Assembly (NCBI GenBank): GCA_000155715.1 | Contig: DS990614.1 | Coordinates: forward strand, 1-40,417 | Reading direction: 5' to 3' | Source of the DNA: a gamma proteobacterium HTCC5015 | GTDB taxonomy: Bacteria; Pseudomonadota; Gammaproteobacteria; HTCC5015 | Length of the DNA stretch: 40,417 bases | Shown here: piece after piece, positions 17,961 through 27,697 of the stretch | Numbering within the stretch: position 1 is the stretch's first letter | How the letters are laid out: every line of letters starts with the position of its first letter | The notes under the pieces: model-generated | The model's database searches: none | The model's input: the letters and a program-made list of their open reading frames with translations, nothing else | What the model was told of the DNA's origin: nothing | Made by a program: the position numbers and the translations under genes

Positions 17961-21662
<3,702 letters not shown>

Positions 21663-22427: not shown

Positions 22428-24365
22428 ATGATACGCAAACGCGCACTTTCGGTGGCTTTGTCCACTGCCCTATGTCTTTCCCCCGTGCTGTCTAGCGCCG
22501 CTTTAGAAGTCGTGGTGACGCCTTCGCGCACGGCCGAAAAACCTCAAAATACCCCCGGCTATGTTGCTGTACTGGATCGACAACAACTGGCTGACAGCGG
22601 TGCTCGAACCATTGCGGAAGCACTGCGCGGTATTGGGTCGACGATTGTGAGGGATCTGTTTGGCGACGGCAGCCGCACATCGGTGGGCTTGCGAGGTTTT
22701 TCTGAAACGGCGTCTCACAACACACTGGTCTTGATCGATGGTCGCGAGTTAAATAACTCCGATTCCTCCTCGCCGGAGTGGAGCACTATTAGTTTAGAGA
22801 ACGTCGAGCGCATTGAGGTGTTTGAAGGCAGTGCGGGCGCTTTATACGGAGATAAAGCCGTGGGCGGTGTGATTAACATCATCACGCGAGCGCCTCAGGA
22901 TTTGTCGGGTCGCGTGCAAGTAGGGCGCGGCAGCTACAATCGCCGTATGTTACAGGCCGAGGTACAGGATCGCTTTGATAGCGGTCTCAACTACCGAGTG
23001 TTTGTCGAAGATCGTAAAGCCGACAACTATCGCGATAACAACGAATTGGAGTACGGCAGCTACCAAGGCCGTTTGGGTTTCTCGGGCGACCGTTTAGAGG
23101 CCTATCTCGAAGCGGGGCAAGTGATAGAAAACCAAGAGACGCCCGGCGCTTTGACTCAAGCCGATGTGGCGGCCGATCGCCGTCAGTCTTTGGCGCCTTT
23201 TGTGGACGACTTTTCTGATACGGAAACACAGTTCACCCGCGGCGTATTGAAGTATCAAGTCAGTGATACTTGGCGGTTTGAGAGCGACATCAGCGTGGAA
23301 AAGGCGGAGTCAGATTTTCGAATCAGTTCGTCTTTTGGCGCTGCCACATCAGATTCGTTTTTAAAGCGAGAGCAAAAAAGCTTTAGCCCGCGCTATATCG
23401 GCAAGTGGGAGACGAACCGAGGTACTTCTCGTATTACGCTGGGTGGCGATTTCTCGATGGTGGATTACAGCATCCGCTCTCCGTTTGGAACCACTCAAAC
23501 CGAGCGCGAGTCCGAGGCCATTTTTGCTCAGGGCTTAATTCCCGTGGTGGATCGCTGGTCGATCACGGCAGGTGCTCGCCACGCCGACGTCGACGATGTG
23601 ATTGACCAAGGCATGGGGGGACAAGCCTACGAATACGACAGCGATGTGGCCGAGTTGGGCGTCAACTTTGTCGCCTCAGATCAGGCGCGCTTATATCTCC
23701 GTGCGGATCAAAACTTCCGTGTCGCGACGACGGATGAGGCAAGCTTTACCTCGCCTGGCGTCACCCAGCTCAACCCACAAGAGGGGGTTTCCTATGAATT
23801 TGGCGGCGACTTTCTGTTTGACGATATCCAGTACGGCGTGAACCTCTATCAACTCGACCTTGAAGATGAAATTGCTTACGACCCCACAGCGCCCGGTCTA
23901 TTTGGTCCAGGTGCCAACGTCAATCTAGATGAAACGCGCCGCCAAGGGTTGATCGTTAGCTCCACGATTCCTTTGACGCAAATGTTGCAGTTGTCCCTCA
24001 ACTACCACCGCGTTGAAGCGGAATTTCGCTCGGGTGGCTTAAAGGGCAATCAAGTGTCGGGTGTACCCGAGGAAAGTGCGCGCTTATCGCTGGATATTGA
24101 ACCACTAGAAGCACTGACGATTTACACCGAAGCGGTCTACACTGGGCAGCAATATGTCTCGGGTGACAACACGAACACACTGGCGAAACGGGCGTCTTAC
24201 ACGCTGTTTAATGTAGCGGCTCGCTACCAAATGCAAGAGTGGGCCTTTGGTGCGCGCATCAACAATGTGGGTGACAAAGAGTACAACGCCAGTGAAAACA
24301 GCTTTGGCGGTATTCAGCCTGCGGCGGGAACGAATGGTTGGCTAACCGCTGAGTACCGCTTTTAA
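22428..24365 (+). CDS. btuB: TonB-dependent outer-membrane receptor, BtuB-like (vitamin B12 uptake)
   Basis: 645 residues; BtuB is about 610. A signal peptide covers about 1-24 (ending SSAAL) and is followed at once by a TonB-box-like EVVVTPSR. The plug domain (about 30-150) has TIAEALRGIGSTIV, SVGLRGF, NTLVLIDGRELN, IERIEVFEGS-type VERIEVFEGS and ALYGDKAVGGVINIIT. The remaining residues form the 22-strand barrel, ending in the C-terminal aromatic signature WLTAEYRF for Bam recognition. The cobalamin riboswitch in front and the cobalamin adenosyltransferase behind make corrinoid the likely substrate. I use btuB on context, since plug similarity alone would also fit other TonB receptors. The stop overlaps the next start by one base. 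Confidence 0.9.
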   Translation: MIRKRALSVALSTALCLSPVLSSAALEVVVTPSRTAEKPQNTPGYVAVLDRQQLADSGARTIAEALRGIGSTIVRDLFGDGSRTSVGLRGFSETASHNTLVLIDGRELNNSDSSSPEWSTISLENVERIEVFEGSAGALYGDKAVGGVINIITRAPQDLSGRVQVGRGSYNRRMLQAEVQDRFDSGLNYRVFVEDRKADNYRDNNELEYGSYQGRLGFSGDRLEAYLEAGQVIENQETPGALTQADVAADRRQSLAPFVDDFSDTETQFTRGVLKYQVSDTWRFESDISVEKAESDFRISSSFGAATSDSFLKREQKSFSPRYIGKWETNRGTSRITLGGDFSMVDYSIRSPFGTTQTERESEAIFAQGLIPVVDRWSITAGARHADVDDVIDQGMGGQAYEYDSDVAELGVNFVASDQARLYLRADQNFRVATTDEASFTSPGVTQLNPQEGVSYEFGGDFLFDDIQYGVNLYQLDLEDEIAYDPTAPGLFGPGANVNLDETRRQGLIVSSTIPLTQMLQLSLNYHRVEAEFRSGGLKGNQVSGVPEESARLSLDIEPLEALTIYTEAVYTGQQYVSGDNTNTLAKRASYTLFNVAARYQMQEWAFGARINNVGDKEYNASENSFGGIQPAAGTNGWLTAEYRF

Positions 24366-24925
24366 TGAAAAGGCGTATCGGAAAAGTCGTCACCCGAACG
24401 GGTGACGACGGCACCACGGGCTTAGCGACGGGCGCTCGCTTGTCCAAGTCTGCGCCTCGCATCCATGCCATTGGTGAGATAGATGAGCTCAATGCCTATA
24501 TTGGCCTTCTGCGAGCACTCTTACCCGACATGGAGACACTCGCTGAAATACAGCAACAGCTGTTTAATATAGGCGGCGAGTTAGCCATGGCAGATGGTTC
24601 GAAGTTGCTGACGGAGCCGGTTTTGTTGGCTCTAGAGAACGATGTTGCAGAACTGAATGAGCCACTGCCTCCGTTGACGGAGTTTATCTTGCCCGCGGGG
24701 GGCGAGTGCGCGGCGCGCTGTCATTTGGCTCGGGCAGTGGCTCGTCGTGCCGAGCGACAGTGGATAGCGCTGGCGGAGTGCGACGATGAGCGCGACACTC
24801 TCAACCCTTTGTCGGGGCGATATCTCAATCGTTTGTCAGATTATTTTTTTGTGCTGGCGCGCCTACAGGCAGAGGACAGCAGTCAATGGCGAGGCACTGA
24901 AAGGCCTAAGCATTCGTCACCCTAA
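24365..24925 (+). CDS. Cob(I)alamin adenosyltransferase, PduO type
   Basis: Attaches the adenosyl group of ATP to reduced corrinoid, making adenosylcobalamin in the cytosol. It has 186 residues, typical of the PduO/ATR family. The N-terminal ATP motif is TRTGDDGTTGL (about 9-19), followed by KSAPRIHAIGEIDELNAYIG. The second conserved block is FILPAGGECAARCHLARAVARRAER (about 116-140), and the tail has LNRLSDYFFVLAR. The start overlaps the receptor stop (TAATG), so translation is coupled and the riboswitch controls both. Together with metH and BtuB it suggests salvage of imported corrinoid. After it begins an 830-bp non-coding repeat region. Confidence 0.93.
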   Translation: MKRRIGKVVTRTGDDGTTGLATGARLSKSAPRIHAIGEIDELNAYIGLLRALLPDMETLAEIQQQLFNIGGELAMADGSKLLTEPVLLALENDVAELNEPLPPLTEFILPAGGECAARCHLARAVARRAERQWIALAECDDERDTLNPLSGRYLNRLSDYFFVLARLQAEDSSQWRGTERPKHSSP

Positions 24926-25754
24926 GTCCGTCATTGCTCCAAACCCCAAGCCACCGAAATACTCGTCATTCTTCGGTTCTTCGTCATTCCCGCGAAGGCG
25001 GGAATCCAGTATCTTTGAGTGATTGGGCTAGTAAGCCACTGGGCTCCCGCCTGCGCGGGAGCGACGGCAGGGGTGTGGGAGGGCGCCTTTATTCCCTGGG
25101 GTGCTCGAGCCGACGGTGCGCCGTCATTGCAATGACGGCCTTTCAGACTCGCCGACAGAGATGTGGGTGAGCAGCGTAAGCAGGAGCGAAAGGTTCAGGA
25201 TCTTCCAGCAGAAACCCACACTCTCGTCATCCTGAACTTGATTCAGGATCTTCCAATCGAAGTCCCGTTATGGAGATTCCAAATCAAGTTTGGAATGACG
25301 GGGTGTGGGGGCTTATTTTGATCATTAATGACGAATTTCCCGTCATTGCGAACGCAGTGAAGCAATCTGCGCATCGGATACACCCACAGATTGTGACGTC
25401 GGCAGGCCTTCCCGAAGTTTCCGTCATGCTTCCAAACCCCAAACCCCAAACCCCAAACCCCAAACCCCAAGCCACCGAAATACTCGTCATTCTTCGGTTC
25501 TTCGTCATTCCCGCGCAGGCGGGAATCCAGCGTCTTTGAGTGATTGGGCTAGTAAGCCACTGGGCTCCCGCCTGCGCGGGAGCGACGGTGGGGTAGCTTG
25601 TCGGAGGGCGCCTTTATGCGCTTGGGTGCTCGAGCCGACGGTGCGCCGTCATAGCGAGCGCAGCGAGGCAATCTGCCCATCGAATGCATTAACAGATTAC
25701 CGCGTCGGCTGCACTCGCTATGACGGGACTTGATATATCAACGGGCGATCGCCC
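24926..25754. repeat. 830-bp gene-free composite repeat region
   Basis: No credible gene lies here. Two copies of a unit (24929-25127 and 25421-25652) share, in order, a CCCCAAA stretch, CCACCGAAATACTCGTCATT, an inverted palindrome pair (24982-25067; 25502-25588) built of CCCGCG(A/C)AGGCGGGAA and CTCCCGCCTGCGCGGGAG, and GGTGCTCGAGCCGACGG. Between them are ATTCCAAATCAAGTTTGGAAT (described as 25276-25301) and CATTGCGAACGCAGTGAAGC (25344 onward). The same modules recur at 35299-36143 and after 40000. The open frames here are translations of palindromes. Confidence 0.85.
25434..25468. repeat. Five tandem AAACCCC heptamers (GGGGTTT on the minus strand)
   Basis: Five exact AAACCCC units in a row, preceded by CC and followed by AAG. 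The sister repeat at 24938-24950 has only one unit, so the array has expanded by four. The minus strand carries five runs of four G separated by TTT, a textbook G-quadruplex pattern. Confidence 0.9.
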
Positions 25755-27077
25755 CTATCTTACCCACACTTCGACGCGGCGATTCTTATCGCGTCCTTTC
25801 TCTGAGTGATTGCTGGCAACTTGCAGTGTACTGCCAAAGCCTCTTACGACTGAGGGCACAATGCCTTTTTTGATTAATTGATTGGCGACAAAGTCACTGC
25901 GTTCCATCGACAAAATATAGCTGCGCCAAGCGGCTTCTTCGGCGGCATCTGAAAAACCAGCGAGCACAACTTTGTATTGTGGGTTTTTCTGTAAAAAATC
26001 GACGAGACGATCGACATCCTGCAACGCTTTATTGTCGAGTTGGTACTCGCGCGGTTTAAAGCGGAAGTTCAGTGATAAACGTTCGGCGCCTTGAACGGTG
26101 GCTTTGTAGTTGGAAGGCGCTCGGCTGTCGACGCCCACTTCGTAAGGGGCAATGTTTTGTGAAATGAACCCAACCTTGGCCACTTGCTGTTGCCCCTTCT
26201 GGCTTTTGACAAATTGTACGAGGTCGCGCAGCAGTGGCTCATCGTTAAAGGGGTTGTAGAGAAACAAGCGCCGAGATAGGGGGTAGTCTTCTGTTGCGAC
26301 ACTGAGTTCGCTCGGCAGAATCGGTGTATTGTCGCCTTCGGCAATTGCCAATGGTTTGGAGCGCCGTACGGAAGGCAGACCCGTAAAACCGATGCCATTT
26401 AAATCTGCTGCTACATCGTCGGACAGTTGATCGTTAGATTCATAGCGTTTTGCACGGCTGGCTAGCGTTGCCTTTTTTCCTAGAACCAGTGATTTGAAGG
26501 TGTCAAAGGTGCCCGATTTATTATCTCGTGCGTACACTTGGATAGGCCTTGGTGTACCGCCCAGTTCACTCCAATTTGTTACCTGCCCAGAGAAAATGGC
26601 TCGAAGCTGGTCAATGGTCAGATGGTTGATGGGGTTGCTAGGGTGAACCACCACGGCGATACCATCGAGACCGACGACGATTTCTTTGCCCGATTCCGTT
26701 AAGTCGGCGATGTGGGCCACATCGGAGCGTTCGCTAGGTTTGATGGGGCGTGAGGCCATACCCAAATCGGCGGCATTGGCGAGAATACCTTTGAAGGCTG
26801 TGCCTGAGCCGTGGGCGTGAATGGTAATGTCGAGTGCCCCGTGAATCGTGTGGCTGGCACTCATCAAACGCTCGTTTTCAGCGGTTAGACGGTTGTCGAT
26901 CACTTGATAGCCGCGATCTGTTAACCACGCCTCTACCAGCGTAGGCATGAGAGTAGCGCCGATTGTGTTAGAGCCGTGTATTTGTAAATTCTTTGAGAGC
27001 GCCGGCGTGGTCGAGACGATTAAACCAAGGGCGAGAACAGTACGGAGTATTTTGTCGATGTTGGGTAAGAAGCGCAT
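25755..27077 (-). CDS. PstS-like phosphate-binding domain fused to C-terminal OmpA domain
   Basis: 440 residues. A signal peptide lies at about 1-29 (ending PALSK). A type II periplasmic binding domain (about 30-300) starts with LQIHGSNTIG and contains GSGTAFKGILANAADLGMASRPIK, plus NKSGTFDTFKSLVL for oxyanion binding. An OmpA/MotB-like peptidoglycan-binding domain follows (about 325-440), ending in KGRDKNRRVEVWVR. The layout suggests a phosphate (or similar oxyanion) binder tethered to the cell wall rather than a soluble partner of an ABC importer; no pst genes are nearby. A stem-loop hides its ribosome site (see the 27083-27108 entry). The DUF6580 gene is 86 bp upstream on the same strand. 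The ligand remains an inference. Confidence 0.88.
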   Translation of the reverse strand: MRFLPNIDKILRTVLALGLIVSTTPALSKNLQIHGSNTIGATLMPTLVEAWLTDRGYQVIDNRLTAENERLMSASHTIHGALDITIHAHGSGTAFKGILANAADLGMASRPIKPSERSDVAHIADLTESGKEIVVGLDGIAVVVHPSNPINHLTIDQLRAIFSGQVTNWSELGGTPRPIQVYARDNKSGTFDTFKSLVLGKKATLASRAKRYESNDQLSDDVAADLNGIGFTGLPSVRRSKPLAIAEGDNTPILPSELSVATEDYPLSRRLFLYNPFNDEPLLRDLVQFVKSQKGQQQVAKVGFISQNIAPYEVGVDSRAPSNYKATVQGAERLSLNFRFKPREYQLDNKALQDVDRLVDFLQKNPQYKVVLAGFSDAAEEAAWRSYILSMERSDFVANQLIKKGIVPSVVRGFGSTLQVASNHSEKGRDKNRRVEVWVR

Positions 27078-27082
27078 TGCAA

Positions 27083-27108
27083 CAGCCTCCCGAGTAAAAT
27101 GGAGGCTG
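27083..27108 (-). promoter_or_regulatory. Hairpin that masks the Shine-Dalgarno of the PstS-OmpA gene
   Basis: On the minus strand CAGCCTCC (27108-27101) pairs over 8 bp with GGAGGCTG (27090-27083) across a 10-nt loop. GGAGG is the Shine-Dalgarno, 8 nt before the ATG. The stem would block ribosome binding unless opened by a protein, another RNA or a temperature change. The pairing is seen directly; the regulatory role is inference. Confidence 0.6.
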
Positions 27109-27163
27109 CAGCTTAAAAAGGTTGCGTGACAGGTGGATTAAGCCGAATAAACTTGGCCAGATT

Positions 27164-27697
27164 TTACAAGGAGGAGGCTTTTGTACGGGTGCCGTGGCGA
27201 GCGGCCAAGTTGTACGCGCCAAAGAAAATACCCGCAAAGGCGAGATCGCCGATCACGCTGTATTGGTAAAAGGGAATGCCCGCGATATAGGCACTGAACA
27301 AGCCCGAGGCGTTCTGTGTATAGAAGGGACTCCCCAGCCAGCTGCCAAAGTTGGTAATCAGGTAAAATAAAGTCGAGCTAGCCAAGCTGCCGACAATGAT
27401 GGTGCTGCCGTTGTAGTGTCGCCGCAGTAAGCACCCAATGCCAACCGTGGCGGCCATGCCGGCGTAGACGAAAATTAGAGTGCTGTGTAAGCCAATCAAG
27501 AAATCGCTGATGAGCATGGCGCTGATAGGCGCTGCCAGTGCGATGCGCCAGTCGCGAAAGTGAGCGCCGGCGAACAGCGCCATGGCGGCGACGGGCGCAA
27601 TATTGGGTGGGTGGGGCAGCACGCGGTAGAGCGCCGCAAATAATATGACAGCGGCAAGCGCAGAGAGTCGCACAGTGTTGTCGGACAAGTTCTTCAT
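27164..27697 (-). CDS. DUF6580 small integral membrane protein, S-component-like
   Basis: 177 residues with about five or six hydrophobic helices. The signature is RVLPHPPNIAPVAAMALFAGAHF at about 25-47 (helix breaks around the prolines), then ISDFLIGLHSTLIFVYAG (63-80) and a C-terminal PFYQYSVIGDLAFAGIFFG. The size and repeated alanine/glycine-rich helices resemble the substrate-binding S-components of ECF vitamin transporters and the solitary B12 transporter BtuM. The B12 genes 2.5 kb away make a vitamin role thinkable, but there is no riboswitch and no identified ligand residue here. A TATAAT ends 6 nt before the ATG, so the transcript may be leaderless. The function is unknown. Confidence 0.75.
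   Translation of the reverse strand: MKNLSDNTVRLSALAAVILFAALYRVLPHPPNIAPVAAMALFAGAHFRDWRIALAAPISAMLISDFLIGLHSTLIFVYAGMAATVGIGCLLRRHYNGSTIIVGSLASSTLFYLITNFGSWLGSPFYTQNASGLFSAYIAGIPFYQYSVIGDLAFAGIFFGAYNLAARHGTRTKASSL

Follow-up and report, generated by a model that had tools for sequence, protein, structure and literature searches.

The locus analysed here raises the question of how a perfect tandem array of a G-rich heptamer came to lie between two convergent bacterial genes, and whether it does anything there. The window, that is, the whole stretch of 40,417 nucleotides that was analysed (contig DS990614.1 of the gamma proteobacterium HTCC5015), holds at 25432-25470 a perfect period-7 array, (CCAAACC)5.6, whose minus strand reads as G4T3 repeated five times. 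TRF assigned to it a period of 7, 5.6 copies, 100% matches and a score of 78, and the remaining eight TRF rows of the window scored 30 to 39. The five exact AAACCCC heptamers reported in the preliminary description at 25434-25468 were confirmed by both the sequence and TRF, with starts at 25434, 25441, 25448, 25455 and 25462. Additionally, the two-unit pattern AAACCCCAAACCCC, searched with up to one mismatch, gave four matches, against a shuffle mean of 0.01, and none of 100 dinucleotide shuffles reached four. In the whole genome (2,625,605 bp in 30 contigs, 98.86% complete), two or more adjacent exact heptamers were found at this locus only.

The array lies in an intergenic region of 829 bp (24926-25754) that consists mostly of direct and inverted dispersed repeats. 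On the plus-strand side, the genes for a TonB receptor and a cobalamin adenosyltransferase (24365-24925; PF01923, E 3.1e-52) end at 24925, 509 bp from the array, and on the other side a minus-strand gene combining a PstS-like periplasmic binding domain with an OmpA domain (25755-27077; PF12849 and PF00691) ends at 25755, at a distance of 287 bp. The earlier placement of the array downstream of both gene sets, between convergent ends, was therefore correct. Among the dispersed repeats, an inverted repeat search recovered at 25225-25300 a further CGTC-tagged stem-loop-like element that opens with CGTCATCCTGAACTT, and a CCGTCATTGCGAACGCAGTGAAGCAATCTG-type element was found twice, at 25340-25403 on the plus strand and at 25646-25726, where it is also an inverted repeat with 19-nt arms, separating the PstS/OmpA gene end from the array. 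No ORF of 100 aa or longer reaches into the region, and a coding explanation was rejected given that the ten overlapping ORFs of at least 40 aa reach only 44 to 89 aa and run through repeat sequence. Within 24800-25900, a search limited to the sigma-70 consensus returned no promoter-like match, and Rfam returned for 24000-27200 two matches, both far under their gathering scores. No terminator was found at the array; two plus-strand terminator-like matches, at 25779 and 25852, were set aside, as they fall inside the PstS/OmpA gene and their number is within the shuffle spread (2 versus a mean of 1.2, sd 1.3).

The preliminary description had overlooked that the array belongs to a composite element, of which it forms the left edge and an inverted dimer of CGTC-1-type REP units, at 25503-25587, the body. 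Such REPs are described in PMC3733652 as carrying a CGTC tag, an 8-bp stem, a 4-nt loop and a CCA tail, and as occurring in intergenic inverted dimers, predominantly of the HH kind. The plus-strand unit at 25503-25529 (27 nt) shows the tag CGTC, the 8-bp stem ATTCCCGC/GCGGGAAT, the loop GCAG and the tail CCA, and the second, inverted unit at 25561-25587 (minus strand, 27 nt), recovered as an inverted repeat, has a changed stem, GCTCCCGC/GCGGGAGC, so that the tags of the dimer point outward. The terminal unpaired CGTC also opens the other REP unit of the window, at 24982, and the same stem was found with other 4-nt loops such as GAAG and GTAG. A-T pairs at the first two stem positions are almost invariable in CGTC-1 REPs according to the same source; they are present in the plus unit and replaced by G-C in the inverted one. 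Genome-wide, the unit was matched at 63 places with at most one mismatch (32 exactly and 31 with a single mismatch, mostly at the first base of the tag), and a reversed control pattern was matched at none.

The relationship to transposases points in the same direction. PMC3733652 states that tyrosine transposase genes are not flanked by CGTC units; the present genome has two Y1_Tnp (Y1-type transposase) genes, and none of six CGTC-REP words was found in the 3.2-kb loci around them, a result that covers Y1-type transposases only. As a separate observation, one of these genes, which is RAYT-like, is flanked on each side by a tandem array of units of about 84-85 bp that contain GTAGGAGCCG and are GTAG-REP-like (locus L069, 1085-1425 and 1954-2526), and the other (L070) was seen by eye to lie amid GTAGGAGGCC-type sequences. 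The element thus resembles the dRS3-like CGTC-1 REPs of Neisseria treated in PMC3733652 in tag, stem, loop, tail, inverted dimers and intergenic setting, and the mosaic dRS3 clusters of Neisseria, in which intergenic CGTC-1 units are interleaved with other repeat families, are comparable to this region, although the latter has only two CGTC-1-type dimers and other companion repeats. An expansion of an edge heptamer such as that found here is, however, not mentioned in the abstract or the relevant sections of that source. A crude sorting of 30 REP loci of this genome by gene position (11 unidirectional, 9 in an open frame, 7 convergent, 3 divergent) was distrusted, as it put the array's own locus inside an open frame of 133 codons.

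The origin of the array is best approached through its unexpanded relatives. The composite element has an unexpanded partner with 92% identity at 24939-25130 on the plus strand, which, as had been noted before, contains a single exact AAACCCC heptamer (24941-24947). The two copies share homology on both sides of the array; their offset amounts to 493 bp to its left and 521 bp to its right, and the difference of 28 corresponds to four times seven, that is, to a gain of exactly four heptamers; the description of the array as expanded relative to its partner was therefore accurate. The left-edge segment between the array and the REP (25471-25502, plus strand), which is common to the partner copy, was found at 12 places in the genome with up to three mismatches; exact heptamers were absent from seven of these, one was present at four, and five were present only here. 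Since 11 of the 12 family places carry no exact heptamer or a single one, a low unit number is likely the ancestral state. In addition, the unexpanded copies already hold two adjacent, imperfect heptamers (for example, CCAAACC|CCAAATC and CCAAACC|CCAAGCC), which differ at one or two of seven bases in eight of the 11 copies and at three or four bases in the other three. These places are related copies picked by their similarity to a sequence that holds the pair, so the eight do not count as independent observations of it, and a background rate of 2.6% for adjacent heptamers with up to two mismatches was left unused, as it was possibly inflated by masked N runs.

We consider it probable, therefore, that the array arose by a recent replication-slippage expansion, in which four 7-bp units were added to a latent pair of heptamers bordering a CGTC-1-type REP on the left, and that it is most likely neutral, with a predicted quadruplex as its by-product. 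Polymerase slippage is also suggested for bacterial heptamer repeats in the discussion of PMC4692102. In such a course of events, the two imperfect heptamers of an unexpanded copy would mispair, and the inverted repeat of the REP, 32 bp away, may add polymerase pausing; slippage would then add the four units, by which the minus strand would pass the number of four G-tracts and would probably fold into a G-quadruplex in K+.

The quadruplex potential attributed to the minus strand in the preliminary description is upheld by computation. The minimal four-tract motif was located by a motif scan at 25444-25468 on the minus strand, with a fifth G4 tract at 25437-25440, and the G4Hunter score of 2.56 is the maximum of the window. 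When quadruplexes were enabled in ViennaRNA, whose energies serve for orientation given its approximate quadruplex parameters, none was predicted with one, two or three units, and four or more units gave a quadruplex of four tetrads. Among the 12 family sites, a quadruplex was predicted at the array, and a marginal one at L075 (-13.6 versus -12.3 kcal/mol, a gain of 1.3). In section 12 of PMC4692102, a melting temperature of more than 95 °C in K+ is reported for the quadruplex of (GGGGATT)3GGGG, and by analogy with it the array is very likely to form one in vitro. A second G3+N1-7 motif of the window lies at 18219-18246 on the plus strand, antisense within a metH-like gene (17961-21662, minus), and other stretches of the genome, amounting to 142,320 bp, gave nine such motifs; quadruplex motifs as such are thus not rare here. 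Another quadruplex-capable motif, of the type GGGAGAGGGGTTGGGGGAGAGGG, was seen to recur in this genome, at loci L222, L224, L229 and L233.

The array was also sought in other genomes. The composite element was matched in 15 of the 55 genomes drawn as relatives, its own genome included, and the other 14 matches are pieces of 24-41 bases. No orthologous intergenic region was found among the 55, and three genomes of the same family, two of which are only 63% and 73% complete, gave no match to the element; neither this set nor the 369 genomes of the class that were searched includes another member of the genus. Near-full-length relatives of the PstS/OmpA protein reach only 49% (G051) and 47% (G036) identity. 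Three exact tandem units were found in 2 of the 369 genomes; in the other of these two, the units (L201, 1501-1521) have repeated TTCCGTGTTGTTCCGTG-type words on either side, and no CGTC REP was seen within 150 bp. Among GTDB contigs, stretches with four tandem units number at least 117. All 80 matches that were listed were examined; 21 lying within 100 bp of a DNA end were dropped and 59 were kept, of which 30 fall in mechanically called ORFs of at least 100 aa.

A first alternative to a single neutral expansion is that the array is a hypervariable locus, VNTR or phase-variable, whose length changes under selection. Its units are perfect, as is typical of an array that is young or still changing, and this would fit such a locus. 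Nevertheless, it lies outside any recognised promoter or gene, as judged from ORFs of at least 100 aa and the sigma-70 consensus, and none of the 11 other family copies is expanded, which makes this explanation unlikely.

Somewhat less credit is given to the proposal that the array works as a G-quadruplex, either in DNA or towards the 3′ end of the PstS/OmpA transcript, forming a roadblock between the convergent genes. Its convergent position is suitable, the predicted fold is far stabler than the hairpin that the strand would otherwise form, and the high melting temperature of the closely similar (GGGGATT)3GGGG oligonucleotides adds to its plausibility. Against it, the gene ends lie 287 and 509 bp away, whereas the G-rich heptamers covered in PMC4692102 favour positions within 50 bp of genes. 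Moreover, transcription coming from the PstS/OmpA gene would have to read through two inverted repeats that separate the gene end from the array, at 25646-25726 and 25503-25587, before an RNA quadruplex could arise, and many transcripts may not reach the array. Only one of the 12 family sites is expanded, besides. The role is thus improbable, and the suggested effect of the array on transcription or replication did not gain support; no function was found for it, and selective neutrality is the most likely state. The functions usually proposed for REPs are 3′-end formation and mRNA protection, and any task that the region may have would fall to the hairpins of the REPs, at the ends of the convergent genes.

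More improbable still is an error of assembly or sequencing, the true copy number being one or some other number. The draft nature of the genome, with 30 contigs and many near-identical REP copies, and the single unit of the partner copy could raise this suspicion, but the array is perfect, its 39 bp would fit within an ordinary short read, and it has flanks unlike those of the partner, so that no chimeric join needs to be invoked. Finally, ciliate telomeres have the repeats T4G4 and T2G4, and the likeness to them that had been pointed out holds for the G4 tracts separated by T; it is superficial, however, as the array is bacterial, 39 bp long, internal to its contig and devoid of telomere context, and the derivation of its unit from a heptamer that occurs singly in sister copies of this REP flank led to the rejection of a telomeric explanation.

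Having preferred slippage at a REP edge, we may consider whether such edges are generally prone to it. Noncoding tandem repeats with a period of at most 30 were counted within 100 bp of a REP core, in a post hoc test that used REP-centred loci and a crude coding mask. In the first set (the window and 46 loci of the same genome, with overlaps masked), 5 of 7 lay near a REP core versus 27% of the noncoding length (p 0.017). In the second set (20 further stretches, with already-seen DNA masked), the corresponding values were 5 of 10 and 23% (p 0.06, which alone is not significant at 0.05). Both sets together gave 10 of 17 versus 25% (p 0.003), and 9 of 16 when the present array was left out (p 0.008). 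These results are suggestive of a clustering of short tandem duplications at REP edges in this genome. Individual cases were also noticed: three separate CGTC REPs (L030, 1573-1611; L219, 3240-3285; L222, 3374-3411) carry at their outer end tandem duplications of similar 20-bp units with GAGCGACG, and other tandem duplications lie at REP ends at L024 (1495-1542) and L011 (1584-1620). On the other hand, the AAACCCC arrays of other prokaryotes show no link to REPs, which counts against a REP-edge habit: among the matches listed, a CGTC/REP-like word was found within 300 bp in 2 of 59, against 4.2% in the control.

A broader proposal, which is tentative and rather doubtful, would make REP edges the cradles of simple-sequence repeats: hairpin-induced pausing would cause repeated duplications of 7-30 bp at the outer edges of CGTC REPs, and in the present case one of them would have crossed the threshold of four G-tracts, giving rise to a quadruplex element like those that occur genome-wide in Xanthomonas and Nostoc. 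In the titles and abstract openings of the literature on tandem duplication at REP edges, on TTTGGGG in connection with telomeres and on quadruplexes at convergent 3′ ends, no match to this case was found.

Both G-rich heptamer repeats and CGTC REPs are already published. The former comprise GGGAATC in Xanthomonas and GGGGA(C/T)T in Nostoc (PMC4692102), which are intergenic 7-bp tandem units with G-tracts of three to four, often in four or more units, as is the present array, which is itself intergenic and has at least four tandem G-rich heptamers. Those repeats were shown to form quadruplexes in vitro, and slippage is named as a possible origin for them, whereas here the quadruplex is a prediction. 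They are also found genome-wide and near genes; in contrast, tandem AAACCCC occurs in this whole genome as one GGGGTTT array, at a REP edge and hundreds of bases from genes, with no dispersed copies. The words GGGGTTT and TTTGGGG are absent from the main text of PMC4692102, and no regulatory role was identified there for the Xanthomonas and Nostoc heptamers either. TAACTGA heptamer repeats are reported for Beggiatoaceae (PMC4679880), and instability of quadruplex repeats is reported in E. coli (PMC7023247).

The array is thus of ordinary origin, an everyday kind of sequence accident. The locus may serve to illustrate how a short step can lead from a dispersed palindromic repeat to one capable of forming a quadruplex, unexpanded sisters being kept in the same genome, and if REP edges are general slippage hot spots, they would be one source of the heptamer repeats seen in other bacteria.
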